Positions 6,223 through 12,977 of a stretch of 24,231 bases of DNA are shown here, one piece after another. The translations under genes and the position numbers were made by a program. Numbering within the stretch: position 1 is the stretch's first letter; every line of letters starts with the position of its first letter. Origin of the DNA: a virus; the IMG/VR virus record IMGVR_UViG_3300030104_000853, positions 12,871-37,101 of that record, one strand, 5' to 3'. The notes beneath the pieces were generated by a model. That model saw only the letters and a program-made list of their open reading frames with translations, had not been told where the DNA came from and did no database searches.

Positions 6223-7482
6223 TTAAACTATATATCTTGTATCTACACTCATTGGTTTAGTCCAGTCTGTTCTTGTTGGTCCATCAACAGAACAACCATA
6301 CCTAAAAGCATCAGCTGCGTGTGATGCCCAATCGTGTAGGGGTTTATTTTTAAATGTTTGCATACGATCATCAAACTGTTTACGGTATTGTCGCAAACAA
6401 TCAATACCATATTTACATTTATTTTTATCAAACCAACAGTTATCTAAATTATTTCTTACAGCCTCTATGCCATGATCTACAGCTAGTCGAGGACATACTT
6501 CAAAATCTAATCCTAATTCATAAGCAACTTCTAGCCTGGACTTACCAGTACCAAGTTCTCTTGTTGTTATATCATGTGGTCCAACATGACGACCATAGTT
6601 ATAACCTTTTTCTTCTAATGCATTTGCATAGTAAGCTAATGATTCACCATCAGCTTCTAAGTAATCTATTAATCTTATTTCGTTTCCAACTCTTTGTGCA
6701 AACCAAATAGAAGTAGAATCACCTATACCTAAATCCCACCAAGTTTCAACTTCAACAGTCGGATCATATTCAACATCAGTAATTCTATTTTCTTTTTCAG
6801 CCTTCTGAATTTGTTTTCCGTAATATGCTCCTGAGACAGCAGCTTGAAAGCTACATTCAAATTCCTGCTCGTATTGATCGTTTGGCATTGTAAGCCTAGC
6901 TTCTTCTAATTCATAGTCAGGTATGATATCAGTTTCAGAAGCTCTATATAATTGTCCGTACCATTCTCCACCTCTGCGCACAGCGAGATCATATACATCC
7001 CAGAATTGATTATGCCCCATTGGTGTTCCAATAAAGATTACATATCCAAGTTTGTCTGACACAGCTGGTCTAACAACTTCAGTCCATACTCTAGGAGACA
7101 TGAGAGCAAACTCATCCATGCATACACCATCAAAGCCTAAACCTCTAAGTGCATCTGGATTGTCCGAGCCGAAGATTTGTATACGAGATCCATTCCATAG
7201 ATCAACCTTCAGTTCGGTCTCATGACGCTTGCCACCAAGTTTCATTAAGGGTTCAGTATATTCTTTTAAATAGTCGTAAGCGACTGCCTTACCCTGGCGA
7301 TAGGTTGGTGCGATATACGCCAATCTTGCATTTGGTATTTCACAGGCGGTCATAATTAAATGGTTCACTGCAAATACAGTTTTTCCAAAACGCCTATGGC
7401 AACAAATTACATTAAATCTTTTTAGTTCGTTATGAATCTTTTCCTGTAAAGGCCGAGGTTCATACGGTATGGTAACTTCCAT
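6223..7482 (-). CDS. terL: Terminase large subunit
   Basis: This DNA-packaging motor has an N-terminal ATPase and a C-terminal nuclease. The Walker A variant HRRFGKT is at residues 29-35. Walker B, GVCMDE, is at 119-124 with the catalytic Glu, followed by coupling motif IFIGTPMGH near 150. The RNase H-like nuclease residues are visible as WWDLG (Asp250), GPHD (Asp304) and HDWASHAADAFRY (Asp384 and Asp391). At 419 aa it is on the short side but complete. Its ATG overlaps the stop of the small terminase gene. A P22-like portal next to it suggests headful packaging, which is inference. Confidence 0.95.
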   Translation of the reverse strand: MEVTIPYEPRPLQEKIHNELKRFNVICCHRRFGKTVFAVNHLIMTACEIPNARLAYIAPTYRQGKAVAYDYLKEYTEPLMKLGGKRHETELKVDLWNGSRIQIFGSDNPDALRGLGFDGVCMDEFALMSPRVWTEVVRPAVSDKLGYVIFIGTPMGHNQFWDVYDLAVRRGGEWYGQLYRASETDIIPDYELEEARLTMPNDQYEQEFECSFQAAVSGAYYGKQIQKAEKENRITDVEYDPTVEVETWWDLGIGDSTSIWFAQRVGNEIRLIDYLEADGESLAYYANALEEKGYNYGRHVGPHDITTRELGTGKSRLEVAYELGLDFEVCPRLAVDHGIEAVRNNLDNCWFDKNKCKYGIDCLRQYRKQFDDRMQTFKNKPLHDWASHAADAFRYGCSVDGPTRTDWTKPMSVDTRYIV

Positions 7483-7772
7483 TAACTCTTTTTCTTACGC
7501 CATCCTATTTGAACAGTAATTGGTTTATCATCATTTCCAGATAGAGTCTGATTAACAGACGATAACTTTGAATGAACAAATGGTGCAGCTTCTTTAGCAG
7601 CCCACATCTTCTTTTCTACAGATACTTGTGGGTTATTCAATAGGTTTAACATATATTTTAAAGGAGTAGTTTGTCCTTTACCTAATTTAGCAGCTAATCG
7701 TTCTGCCTTTGTTCCTGCCTCAATACCTTTTGGTCTGCCAGCTCCTGCTCTTTTTCCACCTCGTTGAGCCAT
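7482..7772 (-). CDS. Terminase small subunit-like protein
   Basis: The 96-aa protein starts with a basic GGKRAGAGRPKG segment, an AT-hook-like N-terminus common in phage small terminase subunits. It then has a helical region (ERLAAKLGKGQTTPLKYML, EKKMWAAKEAAPFVHSKL) and a basic end. It lies immediately before the large terminase and overlaps it as TAATG. It would recognise the packaging start site on phage DNA. Identification rests on motif and position; the protein is shorter than many small terminases. Confidence 0.75.
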   Translation of the reverse strand: MAQRGGKRAGAGRPKGIEAGTKAERLAAKLGKGQTTPLKYMLNLLNNPQVSVEKKMWAAKEAAPFVHSKLSSVNQTLSGNDDKPITVQIGWRKKKS

Positions 7773-8286: not shown

Positions 8287-8553
8287 TTAGCAGTTCCAGG
8301 CTCTAAGAGATTTATTAATTCTAGAGTTTGGATCTCTTGCTGTTTTCTTTGAAGTTAATTTCTTTTTCATACCTTTCATTCTAGCACAGAAGGATGCTCT
8401 TCTTGGGTTGCCTACCTTCTTACTAGGAGCTTTCAGGTTCCGTTTTTTACCAGTCTTTGTTTTTCCTTTATTGTAAGATGCACGACCTTTGGCATTCAAA
8501 CCCCCCTTAGGATTCTTGCCTTCTTTTCTAGTCCATGCAGGAGACTTAGCCAT
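8287..8553 (-). CDS. Small basic protein, DUF6321-like
   Basis: The 88-aa protein begins MAKSPAWTRKEGKNPKGGLN and continues ASYNKGKTKTGKKRNLKAP, then RASFCARMKGMKKKLTS and SRINKSLRAWNC. These are the hallmark segments of the DUF6321 family seen in marine phages and some bacteria. It is very rich in Lys/Arg and has two Cys (in SFCARM and the C-terminal residue). The function is not known; nucleic-acid binding is suggested only by charge. It is one of a run of tiny basic genes joined by TAATG overlaps. Confidence 0.8.
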   Translation of the reverse strand: MAKSPAWTRKEGKNPKGGLNAKGRASYNKGKTKTGKKRNLKAPSKKVGNPRRASFCARMKGMKKKLTSKKTARDPNSRINKSLRAWNC

Positions 8554-8705
8554 TACTTACCTACTTTTTTCTGAGCCATTTTGTGTGCTTGAGTAAATGT
8601 TTTACCAGCAAGCATAGCCTTCTTCATCATAGACATATGTTTTGCAGTATGATGTACCTTATGCTTCTTCATAAGAGCTTTTTGTTTTGGTGTTAGCATT
8701 TTCAT
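8553..8705 (-). CDS. Tiny basic protein (50 aa)
   Basis: The frame begins MKMLTPKQKALMKKHKVHHT and ends AHKMAQKKVGK. It is rich in Lys, His and Met and predicted to form two short helices. The pattern (KHKxHHTxKHM followed by GKTFxxAHxxAxKKVGK) is one I recognise from small unnamed proteins of marine phages. Its start overlaps the stop of the upstream gene as ATGA, and its stop overlaps the DUF6321-like start as TAATG. The function is unknown. Confidence 0.7.
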   Translation of the reverse strand: MKMLTPKQKALMKKHKVHHTAKHMSMMKKAMLAGKTFTQAHKMAQKKVGK

Positions 8706-8932
8706 TTCTGTTTTCTCCTCTTACCAGATGCAGTAACAGACCAGCTTACTCTTTTCGGTCCAGTCTTTTTAGCTGCTTCTTTCTTTGTTATTCGTTTAGC
8801 TACCTTCTTAGGTCTACAAGCAGGGTATGGTCGGCCTTTATCCTTCTTTCCGCTACGACCACACTTCTTTCCTGTCTTAACATCACGCCAGTCCTCTTTA
8901 AACCACTTGCGTAAACCGCCCTTGTAAGCCAT
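8702..8932 (-). CDS. Small basic protein, DUF5872-like
   Basis: The 76-aa protein begins MAYKGGLRKWFKEDWRDVKT, then GKKCGRSGKKDKGRPYPACR and a Lys-rich tail. The GGLRKWFKExWxDVKTGKxCGR...YPxCRP pattern is that of DUF5872, found in phages and large eukaryotic viruses. The two Cys, in KKCGR and PACRP, may form a metal or disulfide site, which is inference. The start follows directly on the stop of the 46-aa gene (TAA then ATG). Confidence 0.8.
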   Translation of the reverse strand: MAYKGGLRKWFKEDWRDVKTGKKCGRSGKKDKGRPYPACRPKKVAKRITKKEAAKKTGPKRVSWSVTASGKRRKQK

Positions 8933-9073
8933 TTAGTACTTGCCACCACGCTTCTTATAGGTTTTAACAAGCCATGCGTTAGCATAAGCACTAGGATATA
9001 CCTTGAACTTACGCTTTGCTTCTGCTTTGACTCTAGAGTATAGAGCTTTGTTTTTAGGTTTTGGTGATGCCAT
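8933..9073 (-). CDS. Tiny conserved basic protein (46 aa)
   Basis: The frame reads MASPKPKNKALYSRVKAEAK, then RKFKVYPSAYANAWLVKTYK and KRGGKY. The KAEAKxKFxVYPSAYANAWLVKxYKKRGGKY pattern is a recurrent short protein in marine phages and large DNA viruses, often beside DUF5872. ATG 9073 overlaps the preceding stop (TAATG). The function is unknown; a compact basic helix suggests nucleic-acid binding. Confidence 0.8.
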   Translation of the reverse strand: MASPKPKNKALYSRVKAEAKRKFKVYPSAYANAWLVKTYKKRGGKY

Positions 9074-9249
9074 TAAAATAATCCAAAGAACTTCTTGTTC
9101 TCTGCCTGTATTTGTTTTTCTTTGTTCTGCATTTGTTGCTTATTGTAGTAGTTTAAAAACTTAGTGTGCATAGGGTGTACAGATGCTGCGTCAGGACTTT
9201 TTTCAAAGATACCTACCCATGCATTATACTGCTTCATGACATCACTCAT
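9073..9249 (-). CDS. Small helical protein (58 aa)
   Basis: The frame begins MSDVMKQYNAWVGIFEKSPD and ends with a Gln/Lys-rich helix, NKEKQIQAENKKFFGLF. Both ends overlap neighbouring genes by TAATG, which is strong evidence that it is translated. It is less basic than its neighbours. No family is recognised. Confidence 0.65.
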   Translation of the reverse strand: MSDVMKQYNAWVGIFEKSPDAASVHPMHTKFLNYYNKQQMQNKEKQIQAENKKFFGLF

Positions 9250-9431
9250 TAGTTCATGAACTTTCCATTAGATTCTTCAATGCGTTTCATAAGCTTCTTC
9301 CATTCTTCAAACGTCATACCTTCTTTAAAGTTTTCAAACAACGGATTGCCTGGAGTATTTTTTAAAACTCTTATTTTTCTACCCATTCTTACTTTAGGAT
9401 CTGGTCTACCGCTTCCAGCTTTAGTACCCAT
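9249..9431 (-). CDS. Small basic protein (60 aa)
   Basis: The protein begins MGTKAGSGRPDPKVRMGRKI, with an AT-hook-like GSGRPDPKVR segment, and continues with a helix EEWKKLMKRIEESNGKF. It overlaps both neighbours as TAATG. The N-terminus suggests minor-groove DNA contact, which is inference. No family is recognised. Confidence 0.65.
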   Translation of the reverse strand: MGTKAGSGRPDPKVRMGRKIRVLKNTPGNPLFENFKEGMTFEEWKKLMKRIEESNGKFMN

Positions 9432-9547
9432 TAGTATAACAATCCCTTCTTCATAGACTTCTTAGTTTTCTTTTTCATCTTTTTCTTTTTATTCTTTTTA
9501 GGTGGTCTACCTTTAGTAGAACCATATGTACCTTTACCTGATGGCAT
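9431..9547 (-). CDS. Tiny lysine-rich protein (38 aa)
   Basis: The frame begins MPSGKGTYGSTKGRPPKKNK, followed by a nearly pure Lys/Met run and GLLY. About 45% of residues are Lys. Proteins of this MPSGKGTYGSKxGRPPKK form recur in marine phages without a known role. It has a good AAAGGAGAGATAACT ribosome site and its stop overlaps the next start. Charge neutralisation of DNA, for example in the capsid, is possible but untested. Confidence 0.7.
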   Translation of the reverse strand: MPSGKGTYGSTKGRPPKKNKKKKMKKKTKKSMKKGLLY

Positions 9548-9591
9548 AGTTATCTCTCCTTTGAAATAGTGTTTAAATTGATTTTAAGGTA

Positions 9592-10290
9592 TCAAACAGA
9601 CGAATCTGAGTTGATTAGGTCTGTATCTACCATGTTAAGGTTCCCTGCTACTGTACGCCTCTCTCCGTCACCCTCGAATGGGTACACACAATGCTGTGTC
9701 CAGGATGGAAACATCAGTAGTTTACCAACTTCGGGCTTGATAGTCCGTGAGAATGGTGGTCTTAGCTCCTCCAAACCCCGTATCCCTGTCTGTCCGAAGT
9801 GAAATTGCAGGAATCCGTCTGCGATCCCACTAGAATTGTAGAGATCTGACGCTTTATAGCCATCTTTCTCTGCAATCTGTGGTGGTATCTTAGTCCATGT
9901 GGTGAATGATAAGCCCATAATCGTATCAACCCCGTGGTCATGAACTGGATTATAGTCTCTTTCGTATGAATGAACAGACCATAGGCTGTGAACATGGGGA
10001 GTTCTTTTTAATTCGCCAACTCCGATAGTCCTGCAAAACTGTTTTATGTACTCCTGTGACATATACGCCACAATATTAACAAATGGGGTTATCAATGGAT
10101 CCTCGGAGTCGATCTTTAACTGCTCCCCGTGGGATATTTGGCCCACCAGTTTATTTCCGAAATCCTCTCCACCCTTATTGTGTCGTGCATCGAGGTATTC
10201 GTTCAAACCCCCTATGACCTTTTCAGGTAACTGTGTCTCTAAAAAGAGTACAGCTGGCGCAACTGAGAACTTCATTGTTATTTCTGTCAT
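9592..10290 (-). CDS. 2-oxoglutarate/Fe(II)-dependent oxygenase
   Basis: The 232-aa protein resembles the 2OG-FeII_Oxy_5 (TIGR02466-like) family. The metal-binding segment YNPVHDHG is at residues 113-120, followed by TIMGLSFT. The second half has VGKLLMFPSWTQHCVYPFEG with the distal metal His at 200, then GERRT, whose Arg would bind 2-oxoglutarate. Such enzymes hydroxylate proteins, nucleic acids or small molecules; the substrate here is unknown. It is the first gene of the late operon. Its base composition is much richer in GC than the structural genes (31 of 60 bases in 9721-9780 versus 16 of 60 in 4741-4800), a sign of separate origin. No good Shine-Dalgarno site precedes ATG 10290; an in-frame ATG at 10275 is an alternative. 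Confidence 0.85.
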   Translation of the reverse strand: MTEITMKFSVAPAVLFLETQLPEKVIGGLNEYLDARHNKGGEDFGNKLVGQISHGEQLKIDSEDPLITPFVNIVAYMSQEYIKQFCRTIGVGELKRTPHVHSLWSVHSYERDYNPVHDHGVDTIMGLSFTTWTKIPPQIAEKDGYKASDLYNSSGIADGFLQFHFGQTGIRGLEELRPPFSRTIKPEVGKLLMFPSWTQHCVYPFEGDGERRTVAGNLNMVDTDLINSDSSV

Positions 10291-10291
10291 A

Positions 10292-10326
10292 ATATCGTGT
10301 GGGAGTCGAAAGGATTAAACCCCCAC
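10292..10326 (-). promoter_or_regulatory. Leader inverted repeat just before the oxygenase start
   Basis: CGTGTGGG at 10292-10299 and CCCCCACG at 10319-10326 are inverted repeats with one mismatch in eight. In the late-operon transcript this would form a hairpin ending one base before the start codon, where a ribosome site would normally be. It could mask translation initiation or serve as a protein-binding site; both are inference. Confidence 0.5.
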
Positions 10327-10332
10327 GCCTTG

Positions 10333-10361
10333 AATATAGCTGTGTGTTGTTAGTGTGTCAA
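10333..10361 (-). promoter_or_regulatory. Sigma70-type promoter for the late (structural) operon
   Basis: On the minus strand a perfect TTGACA (10361-10356) is followed by exactly 17 bases and TATATT (10338-10333), five of six matches to the -10 consensus. Initiation about 7 bases downstream would give a leader of about 35 bases before the oxygenase ATG. It is the best promoter-like site I see in the window and lies in the divergent hub. It implies use of the host RNA polymerase. Confidence 0.75.
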
Positions 10362-10467
10362 TACTCGTAACTTATCTTTGTTACCTCCTTTCTTTGTCTC
10401 TCACTCCCCAATATATTATTACGCATGGTGTCTTCTATAAAACCCCCTATCTGGCTAACCGCCACTC

Positions 10468-11064
10468 CACGACCTGCGCGCGGATGTCGTGATATGGTAC
10501 AGCCTTCGGCTGCCCATCTCCTCCGCTTGCCGATTTGAATTAAGACTAGGGTATCTTTAAGTTATCTCCCCTCATCTTTCTCTTTGTGCGAAGCACACAC
10601 GCTATGAGACATGTCGTCTCCGAACGACAGTCGGCTGACGGGACGAACTCCCTTCAGACTTCCCTTAGTATACCTCTAAGTATAAGTAATAATATCAATC
10701 AATGATTGTTAATTGGGCAATATTCATTTGGGCGTTGAGCGTTCCTTCGCAGGCTCGTCACTAACGCTTTCTCCTCATGTCTAGCTAAAGCTGACATTCG
10801 GATAATACTGCTCATCTATACGAGCAGTACCAAATGATGCTGGAGGAAGGCACTCTCGCCGAGTGCTAGGCTATATCAATACTCATTATACATTACCACG
10901 CAAGGATTGCATCTCTTTTGCTCGGCATTCTGCCTCGCTTATTCTTTTCGACCCTTCGAGTTCCCAGAGCTAAAGCTCTGTGACTGGTTTGTTTCAGTCA
11001 TCTTTAACGAATCGTAAACGATTCGAACGGATTATTCTCATTGTTTAATGGGAAGAAATAATCC
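10468..11064. repeat. Array of about 15 different short hairpins in a GC-rich gene-free stretch
   Basis: This stretch has no convincing gene but an unusual density of perfect inverted repeats. Arm positions: 10468/10486 (CACGAC), 10500/10508 (CAGCC, TTC loop), 10585/10593 (TGTGC, GAA loop), 10606/10616 (GAGAC), 10664/10676 (CTTAG), 10696/10703 (CAATCA), 10738/10763 (AGCGTT), 10777/10793 (ATGTC plus AGC, TAAA loop), 10806/10822 (TACTGCTC), 10850/10861 (GCACTC), 10924/10931 (GGCA, TTC loop), 10965/10975 (CAGAGC, TAAA loop), 10981/10995 (TGACTG), 11008/11019 (CGAATCG, TAAA loop) and 11029/11057 (GGATTATT). None is followed by a T-run, so they are not ordinary terminators. GC reaches 36 of 60 in 10441-10500. 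It could be a structured RNA, a replication or packaging site, or a cluster of palindromic elements. Confidence 0.8.
10696..10720. promoter_or_regulatory. Paired ATTG/CAAT palindromes, possible operators
   Basis: A 13-base palindrome CAATCA-A-TGATTG (10696-10708) is followed after three bases by ATTG-GG-CAAT (10711-10720 region). The single-base centre makes the first a poor RNA hairpin but a typical dimeric repressor site. The position midway between the divergent operons fits an operator. The binding protein is unknown; the ribbon-helix-helix protein at 13300 is one candidate. Confidence 0.4.
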
Positions 11065-11099
11065 TAAAAGATTCCTTACACAAACGCTGTGGTATGTAT

Positions 11100-11170
11100 G
11101 AAGAAATGAGTAAGATATATTATTTATATAATAAGTAAGTAAATAATTAGTAAGTAATATATTATAATAA
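11100..11170. other. Very AT-rich tract with TAAGTAAG direct repeats
   Basis: Only 8 of 60 bases in 11101-11160 are G or C. AAGTAAGTAA and AGTAAGTAA recur within 25 bases, and TATAAT occurs at 11127-11132 and 11163-11168, without a recognisable -35 box at the right distance. It may hold the early rightward promoter or a DNA-unwinding element beside the hairpin array. Confidence 0.4.
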
Positions 11171-11201
11171 CTTTAATAACTCTCTAACGAAAGGAAAAAT
11201 T

Positions 11202-11708
11202 ATGTTACATGAGAAATTAAAATCACTACTAAGTCCTGTATTCGAGTATTATGCTGAATTACATAAAGCTTGTAAAGAGGTTAACCCTGATTCTAAATGG
11301 ACATTAGGTCAACAAAGATTTGCTAAATATCTTAATGGTATTAAGTATGATATCATATCTAAACAGACTTACATTGATTATTTAGTTAAGGGTAATCCTG
11401 AAGATAAATGGGAAAACAATCGTATGTCATTAGATCAGCTTGAAAAAGAAGCAAATGATAATGATACATTTTCTGATACTTTATCTTACAGACAAAGAAC
11501 TTTAGAAACTTTACATCAAGATTTGGTTGATTTAAAACCTGAATTAGATGTAGCTGAAGACTTTGAAGAAAAAATGGAATGGGACATTGAATTCAATTAT
11601 AGAAAACAATCCAAAGTTCATAGTAAAAAAGCTGTTCAAGAATTAGTAACTTATACTAGAAACACAGCTAATTCTGCTATTGAACTAGCTAAATCTATAA
11701 ACATCTAA
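11202..11708 (+). CDS. Unknown early protein (168 aa)
   Basis: This is the first rightward gene after the hub, preceded by AAAGGAAAAATT as ribosome site and followed by its own strong terminator, so it is probably transcribed alone and early. The protein is hydrophilic and mainly helical, with an N-terminal EYYAELHKACKEVNP region, a central acidic coiled segment (QLEKEANDNDTFSDTLSYRQ) and a Lys/Ser-rich end. It has no membrane segment and no Cys pairs. I recognise no family; host takeover is possible from position only. Confidence 0.75.
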   Translation: MLHEKLKSLLSPVFEYYAELHKACKEVNPDSKWTLGQQRFAKYLNGIKYDIISKQTYIDYLVKGNPEDKWENNRMSLDQLEKEANDNDTFSDTLSYRQRTLETLHQDLVDLKPELDVAEDFEEKMEWDIEFNYRKQSKVHSKKAVQELVTYTRNTANSAIELAKSINI

Positions 11709-12206: not shown

Positions 12207-12563
12207 ATGAAAGCAATTATAATAATTACTTCAGTGCTAATGCTTATGGCAATGGAGAAGATAGCACTAGCAGAATCAGAACATTATGCTGGTCCAGGTT
12301 GGATAGGATACAACTGTGATAACATAGTGGATCCAGACCAAGCAGTGCTGTGTAATACGATAGCTATGGAACAATTAGTACACAGTGAGAATGATTGGGA
12401 AGTATGGGAGTTTGATGATTCATATATCATACTAGAAAACAGAGAAGAAGTATTTACTTGGGATTGTTTGATAGATGAGAACACAGACAAAGCTAATCAA
12501 TTCTTCTGTGAAGTAATGATGGGGTATAATTATGATAGAATAGAAAGTTATACTAATGAGTAA
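12207..12563 (+). CDS. Exported small protein with signal peptide (118 aa)
   Basis: The N-terminus MKAIIIITSVLMLMAMEKIA followed by LAESEHYAGPG is a classic signal peptide, with cleavage expected after ALA near residue 22. The mature part is acidic and contains four Cys (NCDN, LCNT, DCLID, FCEVM), suited to two disulfides in the periplasm. No family is recognised. The leader is very similar to that of the 85-aa gene at 12720. A role in the host envelope, such as blocking superinfection, is inference. Confidence 0.8.
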   Translation: MKAIIIITSVLMLMAMEKIALAESEHYAGPGWIGYNCDNIVDPDQAVLCNTIAMEQLVHSENDWEVWEFDDSYIILENREEVFTWDCLIDENTDKANQFFCEVMMGYNYDRIESYTNE

Positions 12564-12708
12564 TATATATAGAGTAATTATAATAATTCTGTTAGTATAT
12601 ATAGCGTGGGTAAACCATGCTTATGTACAAGTAGGATGGTGTGAAACAGAGATAGAAATATTAAGATTTCAAATTGATGATATTCATACAACACTAACAA
12701 CACAATAG
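12556..12708 (+). CDS. Small membrane-anchored protein (50 aa)
   Basis: ATG 12556 overlaps the end of the upstream gene by 8 bases. The protein begins MSNIYRVIIIILLVYIAWVN, a single N-terminal membrane anchor, then has a short external tail VQVGWCETEIEILRFQIDD that may be a short coiled coil. The overlap and the run of exported neighbours support its reality. The function is unknown. Confidence 0.65.
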   Translation: MSNIYRVIIIILLVYIAWVNHAYVQVGWCETEIEILRFQIDDIHTTLTTQ

Positions 12709-12719
12709 AAAGGATAGCT

Positions 12720-12977
12720 ATGAAAACTATAATTGTTGTAACACTTGTAATGCTATTTTCATTTGCAGCTTTAGCTGAATCTGAATATGCACCAAGTTCA
12801 AATGATAGAATCATCTTGTATAAAGTTACAAGTGATAATGAGAATGCTCCAATGTATTCAGGTTACTATAGAGATAGTGATGGGAAAGTACATCAGGTAG
12901 CAGTATGGTCTGGTCGTTCAGATAAATATCTGGAAGGTCCAGTTACTGCAATGAAAGAAGTTGCTAGTAGCGAATAA
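12720..12977 (+). CDS. Exported small protein with signal peptide (85 aa)
   Basis: MKTIIVVTLVMLFSFAALAE is a clear signal peptide with cleavage after ALA. The mature protein (about 65 aa) is strand-like, with no Cys and a YYRDSDGKVHQVAVWSG segment. The leader and first mature residues (ALAESEYA) closely match the gene at 12207 (ALAESEHYA), suggesting a shared or duplicated export module. The ribosome site is AGAAAGGATAGCT. Periplasmic location is inferred; the function is unknown. Confidence 0.8.
   Translation: MKTIIVVTLVMLFSFAALAESEYAPSSNDRIILYKVTSDNENAPMYSGYYRDSDGKVHQVAVWSGRSDKYLEGPVTAMKEVASSE

Follow-up and report, generated by a model that had tools for sequence, protein, structure and literature searches.

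The gap between the late and early operons of the virus considered here very probably encodes a folded RNA of approximately 650 bases, whose building blocks have been swapped among related viruses. The window, that is, the whole stretch of 24,231 nucleotides under analysis, is contained in a 37.1-kb IMG/VR virus record. Judging from its TerL, which is 49% identical to that of the Pelagibacter phage HTVC106P and 49% identical to that of the Methylophilales phage Venkman, the source phage can be assigned to an uncultivated group of marine podovirus-like phages.

The gap and its excess of inverted repeats

The late genes run leftwards from position 10290 and encode a 2OG-Fe(II) oxygenase, small basic proteins, TerS, TerL, portal, scaffold, and capsid, with the last three being assigned from their position and from annotated relatives. 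The small terminase, TerS, is encoded at 7482–7772. The early genes run rightwards from position 11202. A preliminary description of this DNA had placed a gene-free, hairpin-rich region (referred to here as the hub) between these divergent operons, and both its position and its lack of genes are borne out, given that no open reading frame of at least 60 amino acids was found in the gap. Relatives were sought for the early protein adjoining the hub (11202–11708), and none were found. A little further into the early region (12207–12977), there are two small genes, of 118 and 85 amino acids, with signal-peptide-like N-termini and relatives in L070 and L195, which may possibly encode envelope or superinfection proteins.

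The features of the hub and its late side are as follows, in the order in which they would be read on the late strand, with the copies of the G motif last:

11124–11201, no strand: AT-rich tract from the early gene start to the structured region, marked by a sharp drop in GC
10872–11123, minus strand: domain D1, multibranched, with covariation between the window and L070 and a third member in L195
10850–10866, minus strand: linker hairpin GCACUCGGCGAGAGUGC, with a compensatory difference from L041 and L039
10725–10836, minus strand: domain D2, in which three arms and a closing helix, CAUUUGG/CCAAAUG, meet in a four-way junction
10613–10660, minus strand: domain D3, the hairpin AGUCUGA..UCAG..GACU and, after it, a stem with a pseudoknot
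10613–10634, minus strand: H-type pseudoknot NNGAYUG NNNGUUCNN..ACNNNC, the last 22 nt of D3
10585–10597, minus strand: hairpin UGUGCUUCGCACA, conserved with its flank in L018
10466–10512, minus strand: 3' hairpins CAGCCGAAGGCUG (10500–10512) and CACGAC..GUCGUG (10467–10490), identified as inverted repeats
10412–10424, minus strand: block GCGTAATAATATA, flanked by the G motif and the late promoter, conserved in an alignment of 26 relatives
10333–10361, minus strand: late promoter TTGACA-N17-TATATT, with 11 of 12 consensus matches, conserved in relatives
10299–10326, minus strand: late-mRNA 5' hairpin GUGGGGG..CUCCCAC, which holds the second GGGGGTTT, found in approximately 30 relatives
8498–8505, 10205–10212, 10317–10324, and 10440–10447, minus strand: the four copies of the G motif GGGGGTTT, with 0.13 copies expected in the window

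Non-overlapping perfect inverted repeats with loops of 3–8 bases were counted between positions 10468 and 11064, and compared with 300 dinucleotide shuffles. With arms of at least 4 bp, there are 16 repeats, against a shuffle mean of 9.1 (one of the 300 shuffles had as many), whereas the counts for arms of at least 5 bp (10 against a mean of 2.6) and at least 6 bp (6 against 0.76) were not reached by any shuffle. In the other 597-nt windows of the sequence, repeats with arms of at least 5 bp average 3.9, with a maximum of 8. The approximately fifteen hairpins described initially can be recovered when 4-bp arms are included, but some nine of these are expected by chance, and the true excess lies in the longer arms, which shuffled sequences of the same composition do not reproduce. 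The loop classes proposed in the same description survive in part, with the TAAA loops standing at 10965 and 11008 (plus strand), while that at 10783 is a related GCTAAAGC. Similarly, the GAA/TTC triloops hold at 10500 and 10585, while that at 10924 belongs, according to its homologs, to a longer, variable hairpin.

The reported jump in GC content is real, at 36 of 60 bases in 10441–10500, and 45% in the region, compared with 35% in the window. Folding of a 770-nt region gave z scores of -6.3 (plus strand) and -7.3 (minus strand) relative to shuffled sequences, and a similar excess was found in most of approximately 30 related hubs. The structure outreaches the interval first delimited (10468–11064), given that D1 continues to 11118, and the conserved 3' block and late promoter extend to around 10333.

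Covariation in the domains of the hub

The most convincing helix is the closing helix of D1, a 24-bp, interrupted pairing of 11089–11118 with 10873–10899, which spans approximately 245 nt and cannot, therefore, be explained as a simple palindrome or cruciform. The D1 sequences of the window and L070 are 80% identical, and their 70 pairs include nine two-sided compensatory changes and none that are broken (100% of the cells paired), compared with 31–42% paired and no double changes in the controls with slid partners. The closing helix is also kept in the third member, L195, in which one hairpin has been replaced by a perfect hairpin with a GCAA cap. In the linker that follows, the stem is GCACUC/GAGUGC in the window and GCCCUC/GAGGGC in L041 and L039.

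The D2 four-way junction is present in the window, L054, L099, L041, and L039. In an alignment of four sequences, 98.3% of the cells are paired and the covariation score is 0.218, as against 0.087 in the shuffles (none of 500 reach the observed value) and at most 0.029 in the slid versions, while the count of pairs with two-sided changes does not exceed that of the shuffles (188 of 500 reach it). A covariance model of D2 matched hubs only. A 78-nt insertion inside arm 4, in L041 (where D2 is at L041:50-239) and in L039/L085, is a natural case of the gain of a domain in an RNA, and is typical of structured RNAs. The D2 pattern is absent from 84,980 bacterial and archaeal genomes, which thus provide no evidence for the mimicry of a host RNA.

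In D3, six pairs have two-sided changes, a number reached by none of 500 shuffles, and the covariance model R2 recovered this domain in additional, otherwise dissimilar hubs, with E values of 6e-18 to 1e-3. In the pseudoknot, the first four bases of the motif pair with the UUCGG region of the loop, and its nine distinct sequences are fully (100%) paired, four of the pairs having changed on both sides, with a covariation score reached by none of 500 shuffles. The pseudoknot pairs are of the types CG/UA/GC, and those of the stem of the types UA/CG and CG/AU/GC. All the matches to the degenerate motif in the loci examined are in hubs and in the late orientation. A pattern search for the pseudoknot recovered L194 and L195 as true members, while the matches in L196 and L198 were discarded as GC-rich chance matches. 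The slid controls for covariation are near zero in D1, D2, D3, and the pseudoknot; these analyses are based on two to four sequences each for D1 and D2, and nine for the pseudoknot.

Covarying secondary structure extends, then, over hundreds of nucleotides of a gene-free gap, as expected of a large structured noncoding RNA of a phage, and the structured RNA, one of several options raised initially for the hub, is backed by the covariation in all three domains, including the pseudoknot. A second option, the nest of palindromic repeats, whether functionless at a recombination hot spot or forming cruciforms in the DNA, would account for the perfect arms, the similar excess of folding on the two strands, and the mosaic structure. 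It would not account for the compensatory changes in the ~245-nt helix and the pseudoknot, nor for the defined junctions with insertions, and cruciforms in particular leave the long-range and pseudoknot pairs unexplained. Given that the best helix is long-range and the hairpins form part of defined junctions, this option finds no support, and can be considered largely refuted, and highly improbable. The conservation of the structured locus in approximately 40 related contigs (see below) leads to the same conclusion.

The late strand is proposed as the transcribed strand, with moderate confidence, given its purine-loaded linkers, the switch in skew near 11000 (up to which this strand is G- and A-rich), the presence of G-U cells in the covarying helices of D1, D2, and D3 when read in this direction, and the better consensus folding energy of all three domains. 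Single-sequence folds score similarly on both strands, with some groups of hubs folding better on the early strand, and the count of G-U against A-C mismatches in the conserved stems singled out neither strand. A purine-rich linker (approximately 10545–10584) follows the UGUGCUUCGCACA hairpin and occurs across hubs, while the 3' hairpins at 10466–10512 are the part that varies most among them.

Distribution of the hub and the signals of its late side

TerL and the oxygenase served as queries in protein searches, which yielded approximately 150 loci. A structured region occupies the equivalent position between the operons in approximately 40 related IMG/VR contigs, and a comparison of the locus in these relatives revealed conserved structure, including covariation. 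The carriers are a group with TerL at least 85% identical, together with L126 and the members of a distant clade (TerL 71%; L145, L151, L153, and L154), in which both of the hubs tested have z scores of around -5, and compensatory changes separate the hubs of L145 and L154. Pairwise comparisons revealed that individual domains are common to hubs in differing combinations, with modules being common even to hubs that are otherwise unalignable. The D1 domain, for example, is found in both the window and L070, yet the adjoining early genes differ. A blastn search of the hub against sequenced phages returned nothing beyond a match of 35 nt in T4-like phages, which was attributed to chance, as were the matches to the pattern AAAAGARATGCAATCCTTG in L163 and L164, inside the coding sequence of other phages.

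In an intermediate clade (TerL 78–84%), the gene order is the same and the G motif GGGGGTTT is mostly kept, while the upstream region, where available, is AT-rich and mostly has no excess of folding (n = 4, with one marginal case, z of around -2). The structure is also absent in isolates. Because this clade does without the structure despite having the same gene order, the hub element is probably accessory, and, for the same reason, the origin and packaging site also put forward initially are disfavored as the core function of the hub.

The late side of nearly all hubs has a constant order, with AGGGGG(G)TTTT being followed by GCGTAATAATATA, the TTGACA-N17-TATATT promoter, and the late-mRNA 5' hairpin. 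The pattern of GCGTAATAATATA matched in this phage group only, and the promoter is the sole such site in the window. The 5' hairpin is conserved with changing sequence in approximately 30 relatives; most have AUCCUUUC in its loop, and it presumably lies at the 5' end of the mRNA. This arrangement bears on the possibility that the hub controls the late operon in cis, as a structured leader or control region, with a transcript from upstream running through the hub into the late genes and the RNA serving as an antitermination or timing element. The hub is on the strand of the late genes, directly upstream of the conserved late promoter, and the G motif and GCGTAATAATATA block are conserved at its 3' border. 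However, the late mRNA need not contain the hub, given that the strong promoter is downstream of it, and relatives with no hub retain the late genes as well as the G motif. Together with the strong turnover in sequence between close relatives, this makes a leader function quite improbable.

The four copies of GGGGGTTT in the whole 37.1-kb genome are all on the late strand, within 8498–10447, with the first copy (10440–10447) forming the 3' border of the hub. In nearly all the hub-bearing relatives, the motif has a position of -76 to -86 relative to the late -35 element, and in nearly all relatives its copies have a single orientation and cluster upstream of the terminase genes. The sites are found in intergenic DNA and also in unrelated coding sequences, as Gly-Gly codons, and occur in hub-less phages. 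The motif is thus a candidate packaging (terminase-binding), R-loop, or late-region regulatory signal, independent of the RNA. A pac or cos site would be bound by the small terminase, and would be expected in all members and on the terminase side, a distribution that is found for GGGGGTTT and not for the hub, and the motif would be the better packaging or regulatory candidate of the two. It is not a feature of the pelagiphages as a whole, given that the HTVC010P copy is in a terminator-like stem and most isolates have no motif near terL. In HTVC010P-type pelagiphages (L186–L190 and L192), the late strand has a different, C-rich doublet, CTACCCC..TATACCCC, which precedes terL by some 300–350 nt and is possibly an analogue of the G motif.

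A role for the hub in replication or packaging, as a primer RNA similar to ColE1 RNAII, single-stranded DNA hairpins by the AT-rich tract, or a region of terminase recognition, would be consistent with the adjoining AT-rich tract, the G run at the 3' border (which recalls that of RNAII), the copies of GGGGGTTT upstream of the terminase genes, and the fact that no DNA polymerase was recognized among the predicted proteins, part of which were profiled. Such a role is unlikely, however, as the G motif persists in relatives that share the gene order but have no such structure, and the sequence of the hub does not have the conservation expected of a core cis site. The GC skew was discarded as evidence of an origin, given that its minimum coincides with the switch in gene orientation and is, therefore, uninformative.

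At the other end of the hub, the AT-rich tract at 11124–11201 is tentatively presumed to be the site of the promoter of the RNA, and L070 and L195 have a TATAAT-like hexamer that precedes D1 by approximately 14 nt. Scans of the tract for promoters returned no consensus -35 element and no conserved -35/-10 pair. No strong promoter and no terminator were found for the hub RNA, and its hairpins, as noted originally, are not followed by T-runs. Repeated AGTAAGTAA units are found at 11115–11173, beside the early gene start, and this AT-rich stretch may be a promoter or an unwinding region.

Proposed role and known systems

We consider it reasonably probable that the hub is a stand-alone, modular RNA of approximately 0.65 kb, transcribed from the late strand and acting in trans as an accessory factor, rather than a core origin or packaging site. 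This RNA would run leftwards on the minus strand, from around 11120 to around 10450, ending just upstream of the conserved late promoter, and would fold as a chain of independent domains, with the D1 multibranch being followed by the D2 four-way junction, the D3 hairpin and pseudoknot, and the terminal hairpins. The domains would be exchanged between phages as cassettes. We infer an accessory role in trans during infection from the dispensability of the hub, the rapid turnover of its domains at a fixed slot, and its independence from the neighboring gene. The most likely action would be the presentation of the domains to macromolecules of the host or of competitors, as a decoy or scaffold. It is possible, rather than probable, that the slot between the early and late genes holds an RNA gene in which close relatives differ through the swapping, insertion, and loss of domains, as the RNA counterpart of the modular proteins involved in anti-host action and competition between phages.

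Large structured RNAs of phages are few and their functions are unknown, and the hub adds a family from marine phages that is absent from Rfam, includes a pseudoknot motif, and is represented by many natural variants at a single fixed locus. The natural pairs of sister phages with and without the hub would permit its function to be tested by comparison, and an RNA gene built by the swapping of domains would be out of the ordinary.

Like the hub, ColE1 RNAII, a primer RNA that is cut by RNase H where replication begins, is a structured RNA with a G run on its 3' side and an AT-rich tract nearby. However, no homology is apparent between the two, the hub is dispensable in related phages, and further copies of its G motif are found far downstream, in coding regions. 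The pRNA of phi29, part of the phi29-type packaging motor, is also a structured RNA encoded by a phage, and packaging is one option raised for the hub, although the pRNA has only approximately 174 nt and the hub has no match in Rfam.

A term search of the pelagiphage transcriptome paper PMC12753301 returned nothing on noncoding RNA. In the phage ICP1, a gap with no ORF, next to a gene cluster, gives rise to an abundant noncoding RNA of approximately 800 nt (PMC7567579). The two cases have in common a gap of approximately 1 kb, free of ORFs, where a gene cluster begins in a lytic phage, as well as a similar length and no assigned function. ICP1 is a different phage with a different host, however, and its RNA has been shown to be expressed, whereas the hub RNA is predicted from sequence and is likened to that of ICP1 by description.

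At the gathering threshold, no Rfam family, including GOLLD and ROOL, matched the window or 13 relatives, and the permissive threshold returned only a chance match of the hub to snoZ178 (E 1.2), so that the hub RNA is not a member of a known family. It differs from GOLLD and ROOL in having no match to their models and a domain content that varies between related hubs, and while GOLLD is frequently found near tRNA genes, the window has no tRNA gene. The hub RNA would, nevertheless, be like GOLLD and ROOL in kind, as a large (0.6–0.8 kb) structured RNA with multiple domains that occupies a gap without ORFs in phage genomes.
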